Translations under genes and position numbers: made by a program
Assembly: GCA_937872095.1 (NCBI GenBank)
Contig: CALMNW010000076.1
Location: 62,001-126,000, forward strand
Length of the DNA: 64,000 nucleotides
Direction: 5' to 3'
From: an uncultured Verrucomicrobiota bacterium
GTDB taxonomy: Bacteria > Verrucomicrobiota > Kiritimatiellia > CAIQIC01 > Lenti-01
The notes under the pieces: generated by a model
What the model saw: only the letters and a program-made list of their open reading frames with translations
What the model was told of the DNA's origin: nothing
Database searches by the model: none
Part shown: positions 32,606 to 63,555 of the stretch, piece after piece
Numbering within the stretch: position 1 is the stretch's first letter
Layout of the letters: each line of letters begins with the position of its first letter

Positions 32606-33598
32606 ATGTCCACGATCACCCGGCGCGATTTCTTGAAGTATTGCGGGTTTTCAGCCGCGGCCATCGCCTTGACCTCCAGCAAGCTGGGCTTTTTGGCCGA
32701 AGCCCTCGCCAATCCCTCCGCTCCCTCCGTGATCTGGCTGCACGGAAGTTCCTGCACGGGCTGTTCGGTTTCGCTGCTGAACCGGATCGCCGATGCCGCC
32801 GGACCGGCGCCCACCATCAAGGAAGTCCTCACGGACGCGATCAATCTGGTATATCACGCGACCTTGATGACGCCGGCGGGGGATCCGGCGGTCGCGGAAC
32901 TCCGCCGGGTATACGACGGCGGCAACTACATCCTCGTCTTGGAAGGCGGGGTGCCCACCGCGTTCGGCGGCGCGCCGTGCATCGTCTACAGCCTGCACGG
33001 AGAAGAAACAACGTATCAGCGGGCGGTGCAGGAGATGTCCGCCAAGGCGCTGGCCGTCGTTTGCGTGGGAACCTGCGCCTCGTTCGGCGGCATTCCCGCC
33101 TCCGGCTCCAATCCCACCGGCGTGGTGGGCGTGGGCCAGTTGACCGGGCGCGCCACGATCAACATCTCCGGCTGCCCCGCCAATCCCGACTGGGTGGTCT
33201 GGGCCATCGTGCAGTTGCTCACCGGCACGCCGGTGGATCTGGATGCCGACGGCCGGCCCACGGCGCTCTATACCGAGACCATCCACGGCGCTTCGAAGCA
33301 GCTGGTCCATGACAAGTGCCCGCGAAACCCCTATGTGAATGCGCTGGCGCCGGCCGAGGCCGCCGCTTTCTCGGATTGCGACGGCAAATGCCTGATCCAG
33401 CTGGGCTGCCGCGGACCAAGCACCAAATCGCGGTGCAACGGCTGCTGGAACATCCTGGCGCCGCCGTCCAATCCCGACCCCGTCGATCGCTGGCAGAACA
33501 ACTGGTGCATCGGCGTCAACGCCCCCTGCCACGGGTGCGTGGAGAAAACCTTCCCCGGACCGGAATCCTTCTATGAACCCTATTCCCCCCCGGGATAG
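32606..33598 (+). CDS. Tat-exported NiFe hydrogenase small subunit
   Basis: Twin-arginine leader TRRDFLKYCGF; SSCTGCSVSLLNRI, CVGTCASFGGIP, ISGCPANPDW, KCLIQLGCRGPSTKSRCNGCWN, NAPCHGCVEKTFPG. Confidence 0.92.
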   Translation: MSTITRRDFLKYCGFSAAAIALTSSKLGFLAEALANPSAPSVIWLHGSSCTGCSVSLLNRIADAAGPAPTIKEVLTDAINLVYHATLMTPAGDPAVAELRRVYDGGNYILVLEGGVPTAFGGAPCIVYSLHGEETTYQRAVQEMSAKALAVVCVGTCASFGGIPASGSNPTGVVGVGQLTGRATINISGCPANPDWVVWAIVQLLTGTPVDLDADGRPTALYTETIHGASKQLVHDKCPRNPYVNALAPAEAAAFSDCDGKCLIQLGCRGPSTKSRCNGCWNILAPPSNPDPVDRWQNNWCIGVNAPCHGCVEKTFPGPESFYEPYSPPG

Positions 33599-33636
33599 GT
33601 CCATCTGAACAACCATCCAGCATACGGAGTACCCCC

Positions 33637-35037
33637 ATGCCCGTCATCGCCATCGCCGTGGATCCCGTCACTCGGATCGAAGGCCACTTGAAAGCCGAAA
33701 TCGAAGTGGACACCATCGGCGGCGTCCAACAGGTCAGCCACGTCCGAATGGTCGGGACCCTGTTCCGCGGATTCGAAAAGCTCCTCGAAGGGCGCGATCC
33801 CCGGGATGCGCCCATCCTCACCTCGCGCATCTGCGGCGTCTGTCCCACCTCCCATGCCGAAGTGGCCGTGCTGGCGCTGGATCAGGCGGGGGGCGTGGAA
33901 GTTCCCGCGGCGGGCCGGATCCTCCGGAACCTCGTCCACGGCGCCTGTTTTCTGGAATCCCACATCCTGCATTTCTATCTGCTGTCGCTGCCGGACTACA
34001 TCAAGGGCCCCGCGATGCCGCCGTGGACGCCGGGCTTCGAAATGGACCGGCGCGTGGATCAAGCGACCACGGACGTGTTCATGGCCCACTATCTGCAAGC
34101 CATCAACGTCCGCCGCAAGTGCCACGAGATGGGCGCCCTGTTCGGCGGCAAGCTGCCGCATACCCCGGCCTACATCGCCGGCGGATTCACGGCGGTGCCT
34201 TCCTCGGCCAATCTGGCGACCTTCGCGGCGCATCTCGACGACGTCATCGCCTTCATCGAGACCTGCTACCTCCCGGACGCGGAACGGCTCGCGTCGCTCT
34301 ACAGCGATTACTTCCGGATCGGGCGCGGGCACGGAAATCTCCTCTGCTACGGCGCCTTCGAGCTCAACGACTCCGGCAGCTCCAAGCTGTTTCCCGCCGG
34401 ACGCGTCCTGAACGGCGGCGGCGTCCAGGCCATGGATGCCGCGGCGATCACCGAAGACGCGACGCATTCGTGGTATACCGACGCCTCGAACAACCAGCAT
34501 CCTTCGGTGGGGGACACCGTTCCCCAATATCCGAAGGACGGCGGCTACAGCTGGCTCAAAGCCCCCCGCTACGGCGGCGTCCCCTACGAATGCGGCCCCT
34601 TGGCGCGCATGTGGAGCAAGGGCGAATATACCAACGGCATCTCGGCCATGGACCGGATCCGCGCGCGCGCCTACGAGGCGCGCTTGCTGGCCGCCGAAAT
34701 GAAAAACTGGCTCGGCGAGATCGGCAACGGCGACACGGTCTATGCCCCGTGGACGAACCCCGGTACCGCGACGGCGGCGGGCCTTTCCGAAGCCCCGCGC
34801 GGAGCGCTGGGGCATTGGATCGGCATCGAGGCCGGCAAAATCTCGCATTACCAGGTGATCACCCCCACGTGCTGGACCATTTCGCCGCGCGACGGCGCGG
34901 GCCAGCTCGGCCCTCTCGAACAGGCCCTGATGGGAACACCCATCGCCAACGTCCATCATCCGGTCGAAGCCCTCCGGGTCATCCATTCGGTCGATCCCTG
35001 CCTGGATTGCGCCACGCACGTCGTGAAGGCGAAATGA
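33637..35037 (+). CDS. NiFe hydrogenase large (catalytic) subunit
   Basis: DPVTRIEGHLKAEIEV; RICGVCPTSHAEVAVLALD (L1); DPCLDCATH (L2) followed only by VVKAK. Confidence 0.94.
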   Translation: MPVIAIAVDPVTRIEGHLKAEIEVDTIGGVQQVSHVRMVGTLFRGFEKLLEGRDPRDAPILTSRICGVCPTSHAEVAVLALDQAGGVEVPAAGRILRNLVHGACFLESHILHFYLLSLPDYIKGPAMPPWTPGFEMDRRVDQATTDVFMAHYLQAINVRRKCHEMGALFGGKLPHTPAYIAGGFTAVPSSANLATFAAHLDDVIAFIETCYLPDAERLASLYSDYFRIGRGHGNLLCYGAFELNDSGSSKLFPAGRVLNGGGVQAMDAAAITEDATHSWYTDASNNQHPSVGDTVPQYPKDGGYSWLKAPRYGGVPYECGPLARMWSKGEYTNGISAMDRIRARAYEARLLAAEMKNWLGEIGNGDTVYAPWTNPGTATAAGLSEAPRGALGHWIGIEAGKISHYQVITPTCWTISPRDGAGQLGPLEQALMGTPIANVHHPVEALRVIHSVDPCLDCATHVVKAK

Positions 35038-35041
35038 TTCC

Positions 35042-35530
35042 ATGGACCACAAGATTCTCATCTTGGGCGTAGGCAATTGGCTGATGTCCGACGACGGCGT
35101 CGGCATCCATGCGGTGCGCGAACTCGCGCGCCGGCCCCGCGCGGGCGTCGAAGCGGTGGATGCCGGCACGGACTATCTATCCGCCCTGCCGTTCCTGGAG
35201 ACCGCCGGACGGGTGCTCGTCCTGGATGCCGTTCGCGGGCGGGGCGCGCCGGGCTCGATCTACCGGCTCGGGATGGAGGAAATCGAGCTCCGCGCGGGAG
35301 GCGCGGCCCATGCCGTCAGCCTGCTGGAAGCGCGGCGGTTCCTGCCGCCCGGCGCGGCATGGCCGACCATTACGGTGCTGGGGGTGGAGCCGCTCGTTTT
35401 GGACTATGGCCTGGCGCTTTCGGAACCCGTCGCCCGGGCGTTGCCCCGGCTGGTGGCCCGGGCGCGGGAAATCGTTGGCGAATGGCAAGGCGGTCTTTCT
35501 TCAAACGCAATCCATCAGGTGGCTTCATGA
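35042..35530 (+). CDS. Hydrogenase maturation protease
   Basis: MDHKILILGVGNWLMSDDGVGIHAVRELARR...VLDAVRGRGAPGSIYRL...ITVLGVEPL. Confidence 0.9.
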   Translation: MDHKILILGVGNWLMSDDGVGIHAVRELARRPRAGVEAVDAGTDYLSALPFLETAGRVLVLDAVRGRGAPGSIYRLGMEEIELRAGGAAHAVSLLEARRFLPPGAAWPTITVLGVEPLVLDYGLALSEPVARALPRLVARAREIVGEWQGGLSSNAIHQVAS

Positions 35531-38500
35531 ATACTGCGCGTTTTCTTTTCCGGATCTGCTTCGCGGCCGCTGGACTCGGCTGCGCGACCGCCGCCTGGGC
35601 CGCCAACACCCCCGGCAGCGCGACGTTCAGCGTCGGCACGTCCATCTACGGCGGCACCTATGAACCAAGCCACGTGGCGGTCGTCTGGGTCGTGGACAGC
35701 TCCAACAAGTTCGTCAAGACCCTGTGCCGCCACGCGGCGACGCGCATCGCCTATCTGTCGCGCTGGTCCGCGGCCCGGGGCACCTACACCAACGTGGACG
35801 GAACCACCAGCGCCACGCTCACCCGGCAGCCGACCAACCACGTGGTGGTCTGGAATTGCCGCGACACCAACAACGCGGTGGTGCCGGACGGCATGTATTA
35901 CTTCAAGGTGGAATACACGAGCATCAACGGGGCCGGACCCTATCTGACCAACGGCGTGGGCTTCCTGAAGAGCACCTCGCCGGTATCGACCAACTTCGCC
36001 AACGTCGGCAGTTTGGGCGGCACGTTTTCAGGCATGTCCATCGTCTTTGCCCCGACGCTCCCCGACGTCGCCGTGCGGTCCTTGGCGCCGGCCACCGGCT
36101 ACGTGAATTCCAACGTGGCGGTCGTGGTCGGCATCAGCAATCGGACGGCCGGCGCGACCACGCCGTTTACCGTGGCGCTGAGCAACGTCACCGCCGGCGC
36201 CCTCTTGATCGGCACCCAGCAGGTGGCCTCCCTCGCCGCTTCCGCCAACACCAATCTGACCTTCGTTTGGAGCACGGCCGGGTTGTCCGAGGGGACCTAC
36301 CAGCTGAAGGCCCAGGCGTTCAACCTGACCTCCGAAACCAACCTCGCCGACAACGTTTTGACCGGCGCCATCGATCTGTCCGGGGCCGTCCACGACGTGG
36401 GCGTCGCGGCCATCTCCGTCGGCGCCGTGGTTCCGCCGCAGGTCACGACCAACGTCGCGGTGGCGGTCACCAATGCGGGCGCTTTCGCGGAAACCTTCGG
36501 CCTGGCGCTTTACGATCTTTCCGCCGGCCAGACCATCGGGTCCCGGACGATCGCGAATCTCGCCGGCGGCGCGGCCAGTAATGTGGTGTTCGCGTGGAAC
36601 ACCACCAACTCGGCCATCGGCATCCACGACCTGCAAGCGGTCGCCGACGCGGTGGCGGGAGAAATCCTGACGGCCAACAATTCCCGCGAGGTGTCCGTCA
36701 TCGTGGCGAACGGATTGGAGACGAACGTCCTCGTCGCCAAGGGGGCCGACTGGACCTACCTCGATTCGGGACTGGACCTCTCCGGGGCGCCGTGGACCCT
36801 TTCTCCCGCCGGCTACTACGACGGCTTCTGGGCCTCGGGCCCGGCACCGGTTGGATTCGGCACGTCCGGCATCGCCACGCCCATCGGCACGGCGCCGGTC
36901 GTGACTCCGGGAGCCATCCTCGCCGCGGACGTGGCCTCCAATTCGGCCTACGCCTCCACGTGGACCAATGGCGCGAACGGGGGTTCCGGATGGAGCGCAT
37001 GGAAATTGAGCGCCAGCGGCACGGGCGGCCATTTCATGGGGTCGTCCACCAACAATGCCGGAGGCAGCGGCGGCATCGACGTGGGCGGGCGCGCCTGGGG
37101 CCTGTGGGCGTCGAGCGGCGTGACCGAGGCGGTCCGCCCCTTGACGGGCGGCGGACTTGCGACCGGTCAGATTCTGCGGGTGGCCTTCGACAACGGCGCG
37201 GTCGCCGGCGGGCGCTCGGTGGGCCTCGCTTTCCGGAACGCCGCCAGCAATGCCCTTTGGGAATTGTTCTATTCCGGAGTCAACGGAGGAACTTCCACCA
37301 CGAATCTCTCGGAGAACTTCGCGGGCTTCACGGCGACGAGCGGAACCACCGACCGCGCGAGTTCGCTGGACGCCTATCTGCAAACGCCGGGATGGACCGG
37401 CACTCGAATCTATGAAGACAATGGCCGGGCAAAGATCGGAACCTCTTCGGCGCTCGGACAGATCACCACTCCCGCGGTCGATCTCTCGGCGAACGACGGC
37501 GCGGCGACGCTGCAATTCGACCTCGGCAAATACAACAACGACGTCGGTCCCGTGCAAGTCATGCATGCCCCCGACGGCGCCACCTTCGCCCAGGTGGGCG
37601 CCGACCTGACGCCGCCCGCCGCCATGACGACCCAAACCATTCCGCTCACCGGCGGGACGGCGTCATCCAAAATCCGGATCACGGCCAAGAACGCCTCCGC
37701 CAACCGGTTCAATCTGGACAATCTGCTCCTGACCCAAAGCGGCGGCGGCGCAGGGGGAACGACCAACTATACGCTGAACGACCAAAACGGCCTCGCGGAC
37801 GCGGGGATTCCGTTTACCGGCGACGGCCTGCAAATCGTGTTTCAACTGACCGGCCCGACCAGCTACGTCGCGGACGTGACGTCCGGCGGCGACACCTGGA
37901 GTTTCTCCGGATCCCTGCTGGCGCAAGCCGATCCGATCCTGGCGCAGGTGCGGTGCTGGAACTGGGAGGCGGGCAGCGGCAGCAACTCCGACGTGTTCCT
38001 GAACAGCCTGTCGGTGTCTGCCCCGTCTTCCTCGACCATCGCGACCAACCACGTCGCCACCTATTTCCGCAAGGAATTCATCGTGGATTTCGAGCCCATT
38101 TCGGTGAACGGCCTGGTGCGGAAGGCGGACGGCGTCGTGCTGTATCTGAACGGACAGGAACTCGACCGGCAGAACATGCCCGTCGACACGGCGGTCACCG
38201 CCGCCACCTTGGCCAGCTCGGCCGCCGCCGGAACGGGTCTCACCGGCTACTCGTCCTTCCGCATCGCCCCGAGCAACCTCGTCGTGGGCCGCAACCAGCT
38301 GGCCGCCGAAGTCCACTTGTCTTCCCCCGTCGCCGCCGCCAAGGTCTTCGATCTGGAACTCCAAGCGCTCAACGGCGTCGTCGCCAGAACCCACGTCGTC
38401 GTTCCCGTCGCCATCCAGAATGACGGCAACGTCCAGGCCGGAGATCTGCTTGGCGGCGTCGTGTCCTTGACCAACGCCGGCAATGCCGCCACCGCCTGCA

Positions 38501-40854
38501 CGCTCCTGATCCGGGATGCCGCCACGGGCGATATCCTGGCCTCGCAGGCCGCGCCGGTGTTGGTGGCGGGCGAATCCGCGGCCGTTCATCTGGTTTGGCC
38601 GACCTTGGGCCTGCCCACCGGCGACCGCATCCTCCAGGTCGGCACGGTCATCGACGGCGCGACCAATTGGTCGGCGACCGTTTCGAACGGCGCGACCATC
38701 GCCGCGCAAGACTTCACGGCGCATCGCGCCAACGCCGGCGGATCGATCGGCGGCTATTGCGGCGCAGTGGCCGCTTCCGGCAACGTGGTCTATCTGGGCA
38801 TCGGCTCGACGCTGGAAATCTGGGACGCCTCGGATCCGGCGGCGCCGATCCGGCTAGGCGCGATCCGCCTGCCGGGACTCATCGAAAGCCTCGCCGTGCA
38901 GGGCACCCACGTCTATGCCGCCGCCGGAAACTCGGGCGTGCACGGGATCGATGCGTCGACGCCCGCCGCGCCGGTGCAGCTCTTCACCTTCGACACCTCG
39001 GGCAACGCCCATCGCCTGGCCCTTTCGGGAACCACGCTATGGATCGCGGATGGACGGGGCGGCGTGCGCGGCCTCGACCTCTCGACGCCCGAATCGCCGG
39101 TTCTGGTCGGCGCCTATGCCTCCGGCGGCGCCGTGCGCTCCCTGATGGCGGCCGATCCGAATCTGGTCGTCCTGGACATGGACGAGGGCGTGCAGATTCT
39201 CTCCCAAGCCGCGATTCCCGCCCTGCGGGGAGAGGCCCGTTCCATCACGGCCGGCGTGGCGTTATCCGGCGATGCCAGCACGCTGTACGCCAGCGATGCC
39301 AACGGCGGTTTGTTCCGAATCGACGCCGGCACCCCCGCTTCGCCGGCGATTTCGACGAACGTGCTCCTGCCGTCCGTCGGACGTTCGCTGCTCGCCACCG
39401 GCCCCGCTCTCTACGTCGCCGCCGGCGCCGGCGGATTGTTGACCGTCGATCCCGCGAGCCTGTCCGTGCTCGACGCGGACGTCACGGCCGGGGAGGCCTC
39501 GGACGTGGCCCTCTCCGGCAACACCCTCTACGTCGCCGCCGGTTTCGGCGGCTGCCAGGCCTGGAACGTCGCTGCGCCGCTGGCGCCGACATGGGTTTCC
39601 ACCTTTGGCTTCGTTGCCCGTGCCGTGGATGCCGACCTGTCGGGAAACGCCCTGTTCGTCGCCGGCGACGAAGCGGGATTCCAGATCCACGACGTGGCGG
39701 ATCCCTCCGCGCCCGAATGGGTGGCCACCGTGGCCAGTTCGACCAATCCGCGCTGCCTGGCCGTGTCCGGCTCGTTCGCCTACGTCGCCGAATCGCTGGG
39801 CGGCCTGAAGATCTACAACGTCTCCAATCCCGCCGCGCCCCTTCTCATCGGCTCCGATCCCGCCGCCGGCCTGGTCACCGTGCGCCGGCTGGCGCTCTCC
39901 GGCACCACGCGCCTGGCCCTGACCGACGGGCACCAGATCAACCTGCTGGACGTGTCCAATCCGGGCGCCCCGGTCCAGATCGCCAGCAACGTTCCGCCCG
40001 GCTACGTGTTCGATCTCGCCGGCAGCACCTCCCGGTTCTACGCGGCTTGCGGCGGCGCCGGACTCCGTCTCCTGAACCGCGCCACGCTGGACACCCTCGG
40101 CACCTATTCCACCGATCCGTCCCCCGTGGTTTCCGTCAGCGTCGCCGGCGACACCGCCTATATCGGCGATGGCGCGGACACCTTCCGGATTTTGGACGTC
40201 GCCAACGCCGCGGCGCCGGCCCTCGTGCAAACCGCCGCCGGCCCGTCCTTCGGCATCGCCTCGGCCGGTTCGTTCGCGGCCCTCGTGGGCCCTGGCCACC
40301 AGGGCGCCGTTCTGGACGTCTCCGAACCCCTCACGCCGGTTCCCGGCGCGAGCATGGACTACCTGACCTTGGCCCTGCGGGTCCGCGCCCAGGGCAACGT
40401 GGTCCTCGTCGCCGAAGACGAAGCCGGCCTCTCGCTCTTCAGTGTCGGCTCCGCCGACGTCAACCACAACGGCATTCCCGACGCGATCGACCAGCAGATC
40501 GTCGATGCCGATCCCGGCGACGGGATCGCCACGATCTGGGACGTCCTGCCCGGCGACGACTTCGATGGCGACGGCATCTCCAACTACGCCGAAGTCCTCG
40601 CCGGCACTTCGCCGATCGATCCGGCGTCTTTCTTCGCGATCAGCGCCGTGAATACAGCGCCCGGCGGTACCAACGGGCAGTTCGTCGTCCGCTGGTACAG
40701 CGAATCCGGCAAGACCTACACCATCCATCGGACCACGAATCTGGCGGCGGGATTCGTTCCGCTGCAGAGCGGCCTCGCGGGTTCCGGAACGATCAACAGC
40801 TACACCGCCGCCGTTTCGTCCGCCGCCACCTACTTCATGATCAGCGTGCCATGA
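35527..40854 (+). CDS. 1775-aa exported multidomain protein: DUF2271/FlgD-like N-terminus, CARDB-like domains, LVIVD-type beta-propeller repeats, C-terminal calcium-type DxDxDG segment
   Basis: Signal peptide MNTARFLFRICFAAAGLGCATAAWA; AVVWVVDSSNKFVKTL...NVDGTTSATLTRQPTNHVVVWNCRDTNNAVVPDGMYYFKVEY; repeated VYAAAGNSGVHGIDASTPAAPVQL-type units; DDFDGDGISNYAEVLAGTSPIDPASF. ATGA overlap with the protease stop. Confidence 0.75.
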   Translation: MNTARFLFRICFAAAGLGCATAAWAANTPGSATFSVGTSIYGGTYEPSHVAVVWVVDSSNKFVKTLCRHAATRIAYLSRWSAARGTYTNVDGTTSATLTRQPTNHVVVWNCRDTNNAVVPDGMYYFKVEYTSINGAGPYLTNGVGFLKSTSPVSTNFANVGSLGGTFSGMSIVFAPTLPDVAVRSLAPATGYVNSNVAVVVGISNRTAGATTPFTVALSNVTAGALLIGTQQVASLAASANTNLTFVWSTAGLSEGTYQLKAQAFNLTSETNLADNVLTGAIDLSGAVHDVGVAAISVGAVVPPQVTTNVAVAVTNAGAFAETFGLALYDLSAGQTIGSRTIANLAGGAASNVVFAWNTTNSAIGIHDLQAVADAVAGEILTANNSREVSVIVANGLETNVLVAKGADWTYLDSGLDLSGAPWTLSPAGYYDGFWASGPAPVGFGTSGIATPIGTAPVVTPGAILAADVASNSAYASTWTNGANGGSGWSAWKLSASGTGGHFMGSSTNNAGGSGGIDVGGRAWGLWASSGVTEAVRPLTGGGLATGQILRVAFDNGAVAGGRSVGLAFRNAASNALWELFYSGVNGGTSTTNLSENFAGFTATSGTTDRASSLDAYLQTPGWTGTRIYEDNGRAKIGTSSALGQITTPAVDLSANDGAATLQFDLGKYNNDVGPVQVMHAPDGATFAQVGADLTPPAAMTTQTIPLTGGTASSKIRITAKNASANRFNLDNLLLTQSGGGAGGTTNYTLNDQNGLADAGIPFTGDGLQIVFQLTGPTSYVADVTSGGDTWSFSGSLLAQADPILAQVRCWNWEAGSGSNSDVFLNSLSVSAPSSSTIATNHVATYFRKEFIVDFEPISVNGLVRKADGVVLYLNGQELDRQNMPVDTAVTAATLASSAAAGTGLTGYSSFRIAPSNLVVGRNQLAAEVHLSSPVAAAKVFDLELQALNGVVARTHVVVPVAIQNDGNVQAGDLLGGVVSLTNAGNAATACTLLIRDAATGDILASQAAPVLVAGESAAVHLVWPTLGLPTGDRILQVGTVIDGATNWSATVSNGATIAAQDFTAHRANAGGSIGGYCGAVAASGNVVYLGIGSTLEIWDASDPAAPIRLGAIRLPGLIESLAVQGTHVYAAAGNSGVHGIDASTPAAPVQLFTFDTSGNAHRLALSGTTLWIADGRGGVRGLDLSTPESPVLVGAYASGGAVRSLMAADPNLVVLDMDEGVQILSQAAIPALRGEARSITAGVALSGDASTLYASDANGGLFRIDAGTPASPAISTNVLLPSVGRSLLATGPALYVAAGAGGLLTVDPASLSVLDADVTAGEASDVALSGNTLYVAAGFGGCQAWNVAAPLAPTWVSTFGFVARAVDADLSGNALFVAGDEAGFQIHDVADPSAPEWVATVASSTNPRCLAVSGSFAYVAESLGGLKIYNVSNPAAPLLIGSDPAAGLVTVRRLALSGTTRLALTDGHQINLLDVSNPGAPVQIASNVPPGYVFDLAGSTSRFYAACGGAGLRLLNRATLDTLGTYSTDPSPVVSVSVAGDTAYIGDGADTFRILDVANAAAPALVQTAAGPSFGIASAGSFAALVGPGHQGAVLDVSEPLTPVPGASMDYLTLALRVRAQGNVVLVAEDEAGLSLFSVGSADVNHNGIPDAIDQQIVDADPGDGIATIWDVLPGDDFDGDGISNYAEVLAGTSPIDPASFFAISAVNTAPGGTNGQFVVRWYSESGKTYTIHRTTNLAAGFVPLQSGLAGSGTINSYTAAVSSAATYFMISVP

Positions 40855-41897
40855 AGAGCCTTTGGACCAGCGCGCGTTTCCTGGCGATCCTCGTCGCCGG
40901 CGGCTCCGCCTTCGCCGGCGACGCACCGCCGTTTCTGGCCTGGGAAGGCCGCACCATGGGCACCACCTATCTGGTGAAAATCGCCGGAGTCGCTCCCGAC
41001 GACGCGCTCGCCGCGGAATTGCGCGCGGCGGTGGAGGCGCGCTTCGACGAGCTCAACCGGCAGATGTCGAACTACCGGCCCGACAGCGAATTGTCCCGCT
41101 TCAACGCCAGCCCTTCGCTCGAGCCCTTTCCCGTCTCCGCTGAATTCACCCGCGTGGTGCGCCACGCGCTGGCGTTGAGCCGCGATTCCCACGGCGCGTT
41201 CGATCCGACCATGGAACCGCTCGTCGATCTCTGGGGTTTCGGCCCCGCCGGAAGCCGGGCCGATCCGCCCGCCGACGCGGAAATCGAGGCCGCCCGCGCC
41301 CAATGCGGCGCCGGACATTTGACGGTTTCGCCGGGCGATGCCCTGCAGAAGGATCTCCCCGGGTTGCGGCTGGATCTCGGCGGCATCGCCAAGGGCTACG
41401 GCGCGGACGTGGCCGCGCAGGTCCTCCGCGATCGCGGATATTCCAACGTCTTCGTGTCGGTCTGCGGCGAAATCGTCGCCTGGGGAACCAATCCGGAGGG
41501 CAACCCCTGGCAGGTGGGCATCGAACGCCCCATCCAGGATCTGCCGCGCGGCGCGGACCATATCGCCGTCGTCCCCCTCTCGGGCCGCGCGCTGTCCACC
41601 TCGGGCGACACCTACAACTACTTCCTCGACGCCGAAGGAACCATCTACTCCCACATCGTCGATCCCGCCACGGGCCGGCCCATCCGCCACCAACTCGCCA
41701 GCGTGACCGTCATCGGCCCCAGCGGCCTCGTCGCCGACGGCCTCGCCACCGCCCTCTACGTCATGGGACCCGAGCGCGGCCTTGAATGGATCGAAGCCCG
41801 CCCCGATTACGCCGCCTTGTTCATCGTCCGCACCGGCCCGGAGGAATTCCGGCTGGTCGCCAGTTCCCGCTTCGCGGCCTTCGAACCCCTTCCCTGA
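40851..41897 (+). CDS. apbE: FAD:protein FMN transferase
   Basis: WEGRTMGTTYLVKIAG...HGAFDPTMEPLVDLWGFG...LDLGGIAKGYGADVAAQVLRDRGYSNVFVSVCGEIVAWG...LSTSGDTYNYF...HIVDPATGRPI; ATGA overlap with upstream CDS. Confidence 0.93.
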   Translation: MKSLWTSARFLAILVAGGSAFAGDAPPFLAWEGRTMGTTYLVKIAGVAPDDALAAELRAAVEARFDELNRQMSNYRPDSELSRFNASPSLEPFPVSAEFTRVVRHALALSRDSHGAFDPTMEPLVDLWGFGPAGSRADPPADAEIEAARAQCGAGHLTVSPGDALQKDLPGLRLDLGGIAKGYGADVAAQVLRDRGYSNVFVSVCGEIVAWGTNPEGNPWQVGIERPIQDLPRGADHIAVVPLSGRALSTSGDTYNYFLDAEGTIYSHIVDPATGRPIRHQLASVTVIGPSGLVADGLATALYVMGPERGLEWIEARPDYAALFIVRTGPEEFRLVASSRFAAFEPLP

Positions 41898-41932
41898 TCG
41901 CCGGACCCCGGCGCGGACAATCGAATTCCGCC

Positions 41933-42175
41933 CTAGCCGGCGGTTTTCGGCGGTTCTTTTTTGGAGGCCTCGTCGGCCGGCGGCGCGGGCTCGTCCAGGG
42001 ACTTCTTCACTTCGCGCTCGGTATCCTTGATCCCCTTTTTGAACTCCGCGATGCTTTTGCCGATCCCGCGGGCGATTTCAGGCAGGCGTCGGCCGAAGAT
42101 CAAGACGGCGATGACGAGGATGACGATCCACTCCATTCCGCCTGGAAAACCGATGGCCAGGATGGGATTTGTCAT
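41933..42175 (-). CDS. tatA: Sec-independent protein translocase TatA/E
   Basis: GGMEWIVILVIAVLIFGRRLPEIARGIGKSIAEFKKGIKDTEREVKK. Confidence 0.92.
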   Translation of the reverse strand: MTNPILAIGFPGGMEWIVILVIAVLIFGRRLPEIARGIGKSIAEFKKGIKDTEREVKKSLDEPAPPADEASKKEPPKTAG

Positions 42176-61281: not shown

Positions 61282-63555
61282 ATGAATTTGAACCGGCGGT
61301 TAAAACGACTCCTTTTCGCCGCCGCGACGTATCTCGGCCTGACGATGGCCGGCACGGCCGCCACGTACGTGCGGTGCGCCATCCTGCAGTTCAACGAGCA
61401 CTATCCCGACGAAGTGACGATCGATGCCGATCGCCTGGCGGCCCAAATCCGCCAAGCGGCGAACAACGGCGCCAAAATCATCGTGGCGCCCGAAAATTGC
61501 CTCTATCGATACGAGCCGTGGTCCCAAAACGGAGTGACCCAAGACCAGTTGGCCGCCTATTTCAATCCAATGGTCGCGAAATTTTCGGCGCTCGCGGCCG
61601 AGTTGAAGGTCTGCCTCGTCATCGGATTGCGCGAACCGTCGGGCCTGCCCAAATCCATTTACCAAAGCGCCGTGTTCCTGGGCCCGGACGGCTCGTTGCT
61701 CAAAAAATACCGCAAACGCGTTCCGTCCGGCGCGGAAGATAATTTCACCGAGCCCGGAGGAGACGACTTCACCCCCTTCCAAACGCCCTACGGCAAAGTC
61801 TGGATGCAGATTTGCAAGGACATGGATGGCGACCTGTATACCTATGGCATGCCCACCGACATCGATCTCTTCATCGGCCTCAGCAAGGATCCCTCTCTGG
61901 GTTGGGCCAAGGTCGTGGGCGGGTGCCAGAAGGCCCGCTGCTACGGCATCGGTTCGAACTGGGGCACGGGGGGGAACAGCGGATTCGTGAATCCCTCCGG
62001 CGGCGTCGTAGCGGCGGCCGGGGTCGGGGAAACGATCCTCTACGCGAACCTGCCCCTGCCGTTTCTGTCGCCCGATGCCTACGAGCCGGACGATTCCATC
62101 TCCGCGGCCAAATCGATCGGCAACGGCCAGACGCAGTCCCGGTCCATCCACGTGGCCGGCGATACGGATTGGGCGAAGTTCGTCGTGGGCGCCAGCGGCG
62201 CGCGCAACGTGCGGATCGAGACCGCCGGCGCGAGCGGCGACACCCAGCTGTGGCTGTGCCGGGCAAACGGCACGCTGGTCGCCTTCGACGACAACGGCGG
62301 CGGCGGCGCCTTCTCGCTCATCGCGCTTTCTTCCCTGCCGGCCGGAACCTATTACGTCAAGATCCGGGATTACGGAAACAACGGCACGATTCCGGCCTAC
62401 ACCCTGAAGGCCAGCTGGACCGTCGACCGCCTCGCGGTCAGCCCAACGACCATCAATGTCCCGGCGACCATGGGGGACCGGGCGATTTCGGTTTCCGCCA
62501 ACGTCGCGTGGACGGCGGCGGCCAATCAACCGTGGATCACGATTATGGGCGGCGCAAAGGGTACCGGCAGCGGAACGGTGACCTACCGCGTGGCGGCCAA
62601 TGCCGACGTGGTCCGTTCGGGCACGATCACGGTTGCGGGCGGAGGACTCAGCCGCACCTTCACGGTAAACCAATGGCCGGAGCCGACGATGCCGGGCGTC
62701 ACGGCCCGGGGCGACATCGACGGCGACGGCAAGGCGGACCCGACGGTTTTCCATCCCGAATCGGGAAACTGGCACATCTCCTTCAGCACGGGAGCCCAGT
62801 GGATCGTGCCGTGGGGCTGGTCGGCGACGATACCGGTGGCCGCGGACTACGACGGCGACGGCATGCGCGGCTTCGGCGCGTACCATCCGGCCACCGGCAA
62901 CTGGCATATCCAGGAAAGCGGCAAGATTCGAACCCGAACCGTCCAGTTCGGCTGGAGCGAGACCGTGCCGTTGCCGGGCGACTACGACGGCGACGGCAAG
63001 GCGGATCTGGCGGTCTTCCATCAAAAAACGGGGCGCTGGTACTTTCTATGCACGACGGCGGGACGCTACAGCGTAAAATGGGGCTGGGCGACGACGATTC
63101 CCGTGCCGGCGGACTACGACGGCGACGGGGTCATCGACGTCGCCGTCTATCATCCCGCTTCCGGCCAGTGGAGCATTTTGCCTTCTTCCTTCCCGGCCAT
63201 CGGTCCGATCCAAAAGCAGTGGGGCTGGAGTTCGGCGGTGCCCGTGCCGGCGGACTACGACAGCGACGGCAAGGCGGACATCGCCGTCTTCCATCGGGCA
63301 AGCGGCACGTGGCACGTCTCCTACTCGGGCGGCGGCAGCCTGACCAAGTCCTTCGGCTGGTCCGCGACGACCCCCGTGGCGGCGGACTACGACGGCGACG
63401 GCGCCGCCGATCTGGCCGTCTACCATCCCGACTTCGGCAACTGGCACATCCTCAAATCGACCACCGGCAGCTCCATCTTGAAAAATTGGGGCTGGAGTTC
63501 GGCGAAACCGAAGCTCCTGAACACCCTGATCCATTCCTGGTTCGACTTGCCTTGA
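61282..63555 (+). CDS. Secreted carbon-nitrogen hydrolase fused to PPC, BACON-like and FG-GAP-like repeats
   Basis: Signal-like N-terminus; nitrilase triad E (IIVAPENCLYR), K (LLKKYRKRVPS), C (VWMQICKDMDGD); PPC domain DAYEPDDSISAAKSI...DTDWAKF; six DYDGDG repeats. ATG at 61252 is an alternative start. Confidence 0.8.
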   Translation: MNLNRRLKRLLFAAATYLGLTMAGTAATYVRCAILQFNEHYPDEVTIDADRLAAQIRQAANNGAKIIVAPENCLYRYEPWSQNGVTQDQLAAYFNPMVAKFSALAAELKVCLVIGLREPSGLPKSIYQSAVFLGPDGSLLKKYRKRVPSGAEDNFTEPGGDDFTPFQTPYGKVWMQICKDMDGDLYTYGMPTDIDLFIGLSKDPSLGWAKVVGGCQKARCYGIGSNWGTGGNSGFVNPSGGVVAAAGVGETILYANLPLPFLSPDAYEPDDSISAAKSIGNGQTQSRSIHVAGDTDWAKFVVGASGARNVRIETAGASGDTQLWLCRANGTLVAFDDNGGGGAFSLIALSSLPAGTYYVKIRDYGNNGTIPAYTLKASWTVDRLAVSPTTINVPATMGDRAISVSANVAWTAAANQPWITIMGGAKGTGSGTVTYRVAANADVVRSGTITVAGGGLSRTFTVNQWPEPTMPGVTARGDIDGDGKADPTVFHPESGNWHISFSTGAQWIVPWGWSATIPVAADYDGDGMRGFGAYHPATGNWHIQESGKIRTRTVQFGWSETVPLPGDYDGDGKADLAVFHQKTGRWYFLCTTAGRYSVKWGWATTIPVPADYDGDGVIDVAVYHPASGQWSILPSSFPAIGPIQKQWGWSSAVPVPADYDSDGKADIAVFHRASGTWHVSYSGGGSLTKSFGWSATTPVAADYDGDGAADLAVYHPDFGNWHILKSTTGSSILKNWGWSSAKPKLLNTLIHSWFDLP

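Follow-up and report, generated by a model that had tools for sequence, protein, structure and literature searches.

The question raised by an operon in the genome of an uncultured Verrucomicrobiota bacterium (GenBank assembly GCA_937872095.1, a draft of 3.33 Mb) is where an exported [NiFe] hydrogenase sends its electrons when a giant secreted protein and a flavin transferase, rather than a cytochrome, are encoded beside it. The window analysed here, to which all coordinates refer, is one stretch of 64,000 nucleotides (positions 62,001 to 126,000) from the 175 kb contig CALMNW010000076.1. By the general view, the electron partners of exported [NiFe] hydrogenases are cytochromes of the b or c type, and the periplasmic hydrogenases of Desulfovibrio hand their electrons to cytochrome c3. 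In the window the plus strand encodes in succession the small subunit (330 aa; 32606–33598) and the large subunit (466 aa; 33637–35037) of a [NiFe] hydrogenase, a maturation protease of the HycI/HybD type (35042–35530; HycI/hydrog_prot models), a giant exported protein of 1775 aa (35527–40854) and the FAD:protein FMN (flavin mononucleotide) transferase ApbE (40851–41897), all of them open reading frames (ORFs) with Pfam and NCBIfam matches. The original prediction, made from the letters of the sequence, took the giant protein for a flavinylated electron acceptor or scaffold that replaces the cytochrome. The layout from which it started is borne out by the ORFs and by reading of the bases: the genes are co-directional and in the order given, the gaps between small and large subunit and between large subunit and protease are 38 and 4 bp, and ATGA overlaps join the protease to the giant gene (35527–35530) and the giant gene to apbE (40851–40854). 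A hidden Markov model scan likewise recovers all three domains proposed for the giant protein, namely DUF2271, CARDB and LVIVD. The same gene order is found in 17 related loci and in locus L053, and is hence no chance arrangement. A promoter scan revealed no sigma-70-like site, and terminators are no more numerous than in shuffled sequences.

Comparison with these relatives reveals which part of the arrangement is constant. A large-subunit search across 288 genomes of the class identified 17 genomes with a hydrogenase of the close type, and the window, the 17 related loci and L053 (a Verrucomicrobiota record) together make up 19 loci, with genome G104 containing two. Reading of the neighbourhoods shows that in all 19 the hydrogenase genes are followed by one for a propeller protein, and in the tree of large subunits the 19 LVIVD-linked sequences group as a single branch (support 100/99). 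A search with the propeller (E<=1e-25) found it in 17 of the 288 genomes; of these, 16 also have the hydrogenase, which occurs in 17 genomes in all (Fisher p ~4e-24, kinship ignored). DUF2271 is present in 14 of the 19 loci, and apbE is adjacent in six (the window, L032–L035 and L053). The invariant partner of the hydrogenase is the LVIVD propeller, and the flavin module is frequent but optional, which argues for a scaffold plus a relay rather than for an acceptor alone. The predicted replacement of the cytochrome thus survives in part: it is favoured by the conserved hydrogenase–propeller pair, the DUF2271 motif, the dedicated ApbE and the lack of multihaem ORFs near DUF2271 loci, but the flavin components are not the constant element. 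When relatives that lack both the giant protein and apbE were sought, none of the 19 loci was without a propeller protein, in keeping with the prediction, and 13 were without an adjacent apbE, which speaks against it. More distant hydrogenases (L049–L051 and L156, ~49% identity) have no LVIVD partner, and neither have two relatives from other classes (54–56% identity), although the contig of one of these two, L154, ends shortly after the protease gene. In L049, L050, L051 and L156, of the same phylum, this second type of exported hydrogenase is followed by a conserved repeat protein that, judged by eye, resembles the SUMF1 (formylglycine-generating) fold.

From N- to C-terminus the giant protein consists of a signal peptide, which is of the Sec type as judged by eye, DUF2271, CARDB, a lineage-specific insertion, a conserved stretch, the LVIVD repeats, TSP3 and a C-terminal domain. 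CARDB, an adhesion-like Ig domain, comprises residues 179–279 (36061–36363; 49.8 bits in Pfam). The insertion of ~385 aa (residues ~455–840; 36889–38046) is missing in all relatives with alignable flanking segments, even in L032 of the same genus; its residues 605–776 resemble an NCBIfam surface-endonuclease (nuclease) model at a score below the cut-off of that model, and probably form a jelly-roll domain. The LVIVD repeats (residues ~1121–1639; 38887–40443; 99.9 bits in Pfam) build a tandem beta-propeller with ~13 four-stranded blades, and PF08309 repeats are found in all 18 giant-protein family members. In the AlphaFold2 model the propeller has a mean predicted local distance difference test (pLDDT) score of 86, with most blades at ~90, and resembles tandem interaction platforms of the WD40 type. 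A pyrroloquinoline quinone (PQQ) enzyme was considered for this part and rejected, since PQQ_2 is a weak match that stays under its cut-off in the window protein and is found in only 6 of the 18 members. The family also varies in its arrangement: the DUF2271 and propeller parts of L044 are two consecutive ORFs, by a natural split or a frameshift, two DUF2271–LVIVD giants stand in tandem in L036 (7936–18693), and one protein of L039 (8009–9601) has two DUF2271 domains, each with its own motif.

The flavin would be carried by the DUF2271 domain at residues 26–165 (35602–36021). In the full-length scan this domain reaches 25.1 bits, below the Pfam cut-off of 27.3 bits, so that a chance match had to be considered; it was rejected, since the domain alone (30.6 bits) and the whole-genome search (29.8 bits) score above the cut-off and the alignment agrees. 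By these profile scores and this alignment the DUF2271 domain is genuine, and the Pfam model matches all 15 related domains. The putative flavinylation motif D91-GTTSA-T97 (DGTTSAT; 35797–35817), with Thr97 (ACG; 35815–35817) as the predicted FMN-bearing residue, falls where standalone DUF2271 proteins of the same class have DAVTGAT. Within the consensus D-x-x-[ST]-[GS]-A-T the residues D, A and T do not vary among the 15 domains, in which only 12 columns are invariant overall, and a motif of this form arises in 0.3% of shuffled versions of the domain. Compared with the flavinylation consensus [S/T]GA[S/T], the motif ends in TSAT in the window and in GAT in L037, L038, L041, L043, L044, L048 and L053; Ser replaces the Gly in more than half of the aligned domains, and TSAT is also seen in one standalone DUF2271 protein of the class. 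An association of the TSAT form with an adjacent ApbE was tried and is not significant (p ~0.10). A structural search with the DUF2271 model gave nothing significant (best E 0.012), the weak matches being pilin, CnaB and FlgD-like sandwiches, and no more than a loosely Ig-like fold can be claimed from the model. DUF2271 has been established as a substrate of ApbE, since the purified co-expressed protein was flavinylated and the flavin was lost upon mutation of the Thr to Ala (PMC8238504).

The ApbE of the operon scores 298 bits in Pfam, appears by eye to have an export signal, and retains the active-site motifs TSGD, YSHIVDP and ADGLAT in alignment with PDB 6nxi. A second apbE is the only other one in the genome; it lies on contig C32 in an NQR/RNF-type cluster (NqrB- and NqrD-like genes, named by eye) together with the only FMN_bind protein of the genome, and the window ApbE adjoins the only confident DUF2271. 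Each of the two genes adjoins a sole candidate substrate, and the simplest assignment would give each ApbE its own substrate, that of the operon ApbE being the giant protein. Some ApbE is present in all 17 genomes with the close-type hydrogenase, and among these genomes ApbE of the hydrogenase-linked type (60–77% identical) is found only where it is adjacent to the hydrogenase.

On the side of the enzyme, the small subunit combines Oxidored_q6 and NiFe_hyd_SSU_C domains with a Tat (twin-arginine translocation) signal (TRRDFLKYCG; Pfam/NCBIfam), has neither a C-terminal membrane anchor nor a CxxCH haem motif, and ends just past the region of the iron–sulphur (FeS) ligands, which are kept in alignment with solved enzymes. 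At the medial-cluster position (NNWC) a Cys is found, as in the [NiFeSe] enzyme, where a [NiFe] enzyme of Desulfovibrio has Pro; a Cys at this place makes the medial cluster [4Fe-4S], as is predicted here. With 383 bits the large subunit matches NiFeSe_Hases (Pfam) and contains both nickel CxxC motifs, RICGVC (L1) and DPCLDC (L2), with a short C-terminal peptide following DPCLDCATH. Its Cys455 is encoded by TGC, so that the first position of DP(C/U)xxC is cysteine and not selenocysteine. The best PDB relatives of the hydrogenase are the periplasmic [NiFeSe]/[NiFe] enzymes 5jsu, 2wpn and 1cc1, its nearest NCBIfam relatives are of this kind as well, and the large subunit is nearest to [NiFeSe] enzymes; Desulfovibrio-type hydrogenases of this kind we take to be group 1a in HydDB. 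A [NiFeSe] hydrogenase is ruled out by the TGC codon and by the NCBIfam NiFeSe models, whose cut-offs the window enzyme misses, and a membrane-bound uptake hydrogenase with cytochrome b by the lack of an anchor and of a cytochrome b gene in the operon. Because of the Tat signal, the missing anchor and CxxCH, the FeS ligands and the normal Cys codon, the enzyme is, as far as its sequence tells, a soluble, exported group-1 [NiFe] hydrogenase. A small subunit of different build, ~660 aa long with apparent Ig-type repeats and no haem motif, is encoded in L057 (7990–9972; a Candidatus Omnitrophota record). Elsewhere the genome has HypD, TatC and two further NiFe-type loci, named by eye as Hox-like and complex-I/Mrp-like, which look cytosolic or energy-converting. 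The tatA noted to follow convergently is present as an ORF for a TatA-like protein of 80 aa on the minus strand (41933–42175); it is a second TatA paralogue, another adjoining TatC elsewhere in the genome, and may serve as a dedicated Tat pore component for the hydrogenase. Several relatives (L032, L039, L153 and L154) likewise have genes resembling tat next to the hydrogenase, and L148 belongs with this observation on TatA.

The distribution of haem among the loci suggests what might stand in for the flavin where DUF2271 is missing. ORFs with 3 or more CxxCH motifs, counted as multihaem, are absent from all 14 DUF2271 loci but present in three of the four DUF2271-less loci with long flanks (p ~0.005, a value inflated by kinship). 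The multihaem cytochromes of L042, L045 and L046 have 7–9 CxxCH motifs and a conserved N-terminus (WQVIGWNDLGMHCMDGTDFS), and are encoded 4–12 kb from the DUF2271-less hydrogenases. The short propeller proteins that lack DUF2271 have no CxxCH themselves. In adjoining branches of the tree the small subunit itself has 1 to 4 CxxCH (L055, L056 and L059), or an 8-haem protein is encoded beside it (L060). Redundancy between flavinylation and cytochromes has been reported for other systems (eLife survey, PMC8238504). The pattern of haem and flavin fits a mutual replacement as electron exit, and is suggestive of it.

Taken together, the locus is read as encoding a periplasmic group-1 hydrogenase for which a propeller protein is the docking scaffold and supplies an electron relay in the form of FMN, an interpretation that we regard as evenly poised. 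The Tat-exported soluble enzyme and the Sec-exported scaffold would act jointly, either in the periplasm or on the cell surface, and the C-terminal tandem beta-propeller of the scaffold would be the obligatory docking part for the hydrogenase dimer. The neighbouring ApbE would flavinylate the N-terminal DUF2271 at Thr97, and the resulting FMN would accept electrons that leave the small subunit at its distal FeS cluster, or supply them for H2 formation, and as a relay exchange them with a further carrier, so that the flavin module would fill the place held by c-type haems in neighbouring hydrogenases. Gene order, clade-wide linkage of hydrogenase and propeller, DUF2271, its invariant motif and the ApbE pairing are the directly established parts of this scheme, and from them we infer the covalent FMN, the physical contact, the flow and direction of electrons and the final acceptor. 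Several observations weigh against it. The window domain has Ser at the usual Gly of the ApbE motif, and a Gly-to-Ala exchange in a characterised ApbE target cut flavinylation to ~50% (PMC12052999). The structure model of DUF2271 reaches a pLDDT of only 70, and besides the DUF2271 motif the giant protein has no visible redox site and no linked membrane partner. The domain is missing in 5 of the 19 loci, and the flavin is therefore not essential to the hydrogenase–propeller pair. Furthermore, all three multihaem-bearing loci without DUF2271 belong to one genus, and for this reason the haem contrast is only suggestive. A further step, which we put forward tentatively and think rather less likely to hold, is a cytochrome-free circuit in which H2 electrons would exit via covalent FMN on the secreted propeller, possibly to extracellular acceptors, and in which flavin and multihaem modules would be evolutionarily interchangeable on a hydrogenase–propeller core.

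The main rival explanation, which is possible though somewhat doubtful, treats the giant protein mainly as a surface scaffold or anchor, in which the propeller positions the soluble hydrogenase dimer on the envelope or on a partner cell, and any flavin on DUF2271 serves another reductase or is incidental to hydrogenase turnover. The universal propeller beside the patchier DUF2271 and adjacent apbE would be expected under it, as would the short forms without DUF2271 and without CxxCH, and propeller, CARDB and TSP3 are parts typically seen in proteins that interact at the cell surface. However, it does not account for the putative flavinylation motif that is strictly kept in every DUF2271 copy, for the dedicated ApbE in the operon, or for the nearby multihaem cytochromes that three DUF2271-less loci have instead. 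The relay could also run mainly toward H2 formation, with extracytosolic electrons passing through the FMN domain to a low-potential hydrogenase beside the Hox-like and complex-I/Mrp-like enzymes. The [NiFeSe] enzymes as nearest solved relatives, the shared medial-cluster Cys, which is consistent with three [4Fe-4S] clusters, and the cytosolic or energy-converting look of the two other NiFe-type loci can be cited for this direction, but direction cannot be read from sequence and a periplasmic enzyme beside two others fits H2 recapture equally well, so that we consider it unlikely as the main mode. That the genes share an operon but are not functionally coupled, the giant being a generic secreted protein placed downstream by chance, could be argued from an LVIVD protein without this hydrogenase in genome G016 and a second LVIVD copy in G027; given that hydrogenase and giant gene are adjacent in all 19 loci, which are divergent and come from several families, and that their co-occurrence is near-exclusive, this is highly improbable.

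Each part of the proposed hydrogenase–propeller–FMN system is known already, and the new aspect is the kind of partner that accompanies an exported [NiFe] hydrogenase. As a Tat-exported soluble dimer with the medial-cluster Cys it resembles the [NiFeSe]/[NiFe] enzymes of Desulfovibrio, but it has Cys instead of selenocysteine, and a propeller/DUF2271 protein is encoded rather than cytochrome c3. With the DUF2271–ApbE PepSY-like clusters (PMC8238504) it shares DUF2271, a putative flavinylation motif (with Ser for Gly in the window) and the adjoining apbE; by contrast, the operon has no PepSY or DUF4198 gene, and DUF2271 is here the N-terminal module of a hydrogenase-linked propeller protein of 1400–2000 aa, a combination that is unmentioned in the main texts of PMC8238504 and PMC11334425. 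The sister hydrogenases L055, L056, L059 and L060 occupy adjoining tree branches and likewise have a Tat-exported small subunit, a large subunit and a protease, but their exit would be through c-type haem, whereas the clade of the window has the flavin/propeller protein. LVIVD surface proteins (PF08309) are similar in being secreted and in their LVIVD repeats and beta-propeller fold; the open-access main texts that were searched connect no LVIVD protein with a hydrogenase or with covalently bound flavin, and no report among them joins a hydrogenase with DUF2271 or LVIVD. If the proposed relay is correct, electrons from H2 would have a new way out of the enzyme in this conserved clade, DUF2271 would gain a defined electron donor, and the pairing would suggest how some Verrucomicrobiota run periplasmic hydrogenases without a linked cytochrome.

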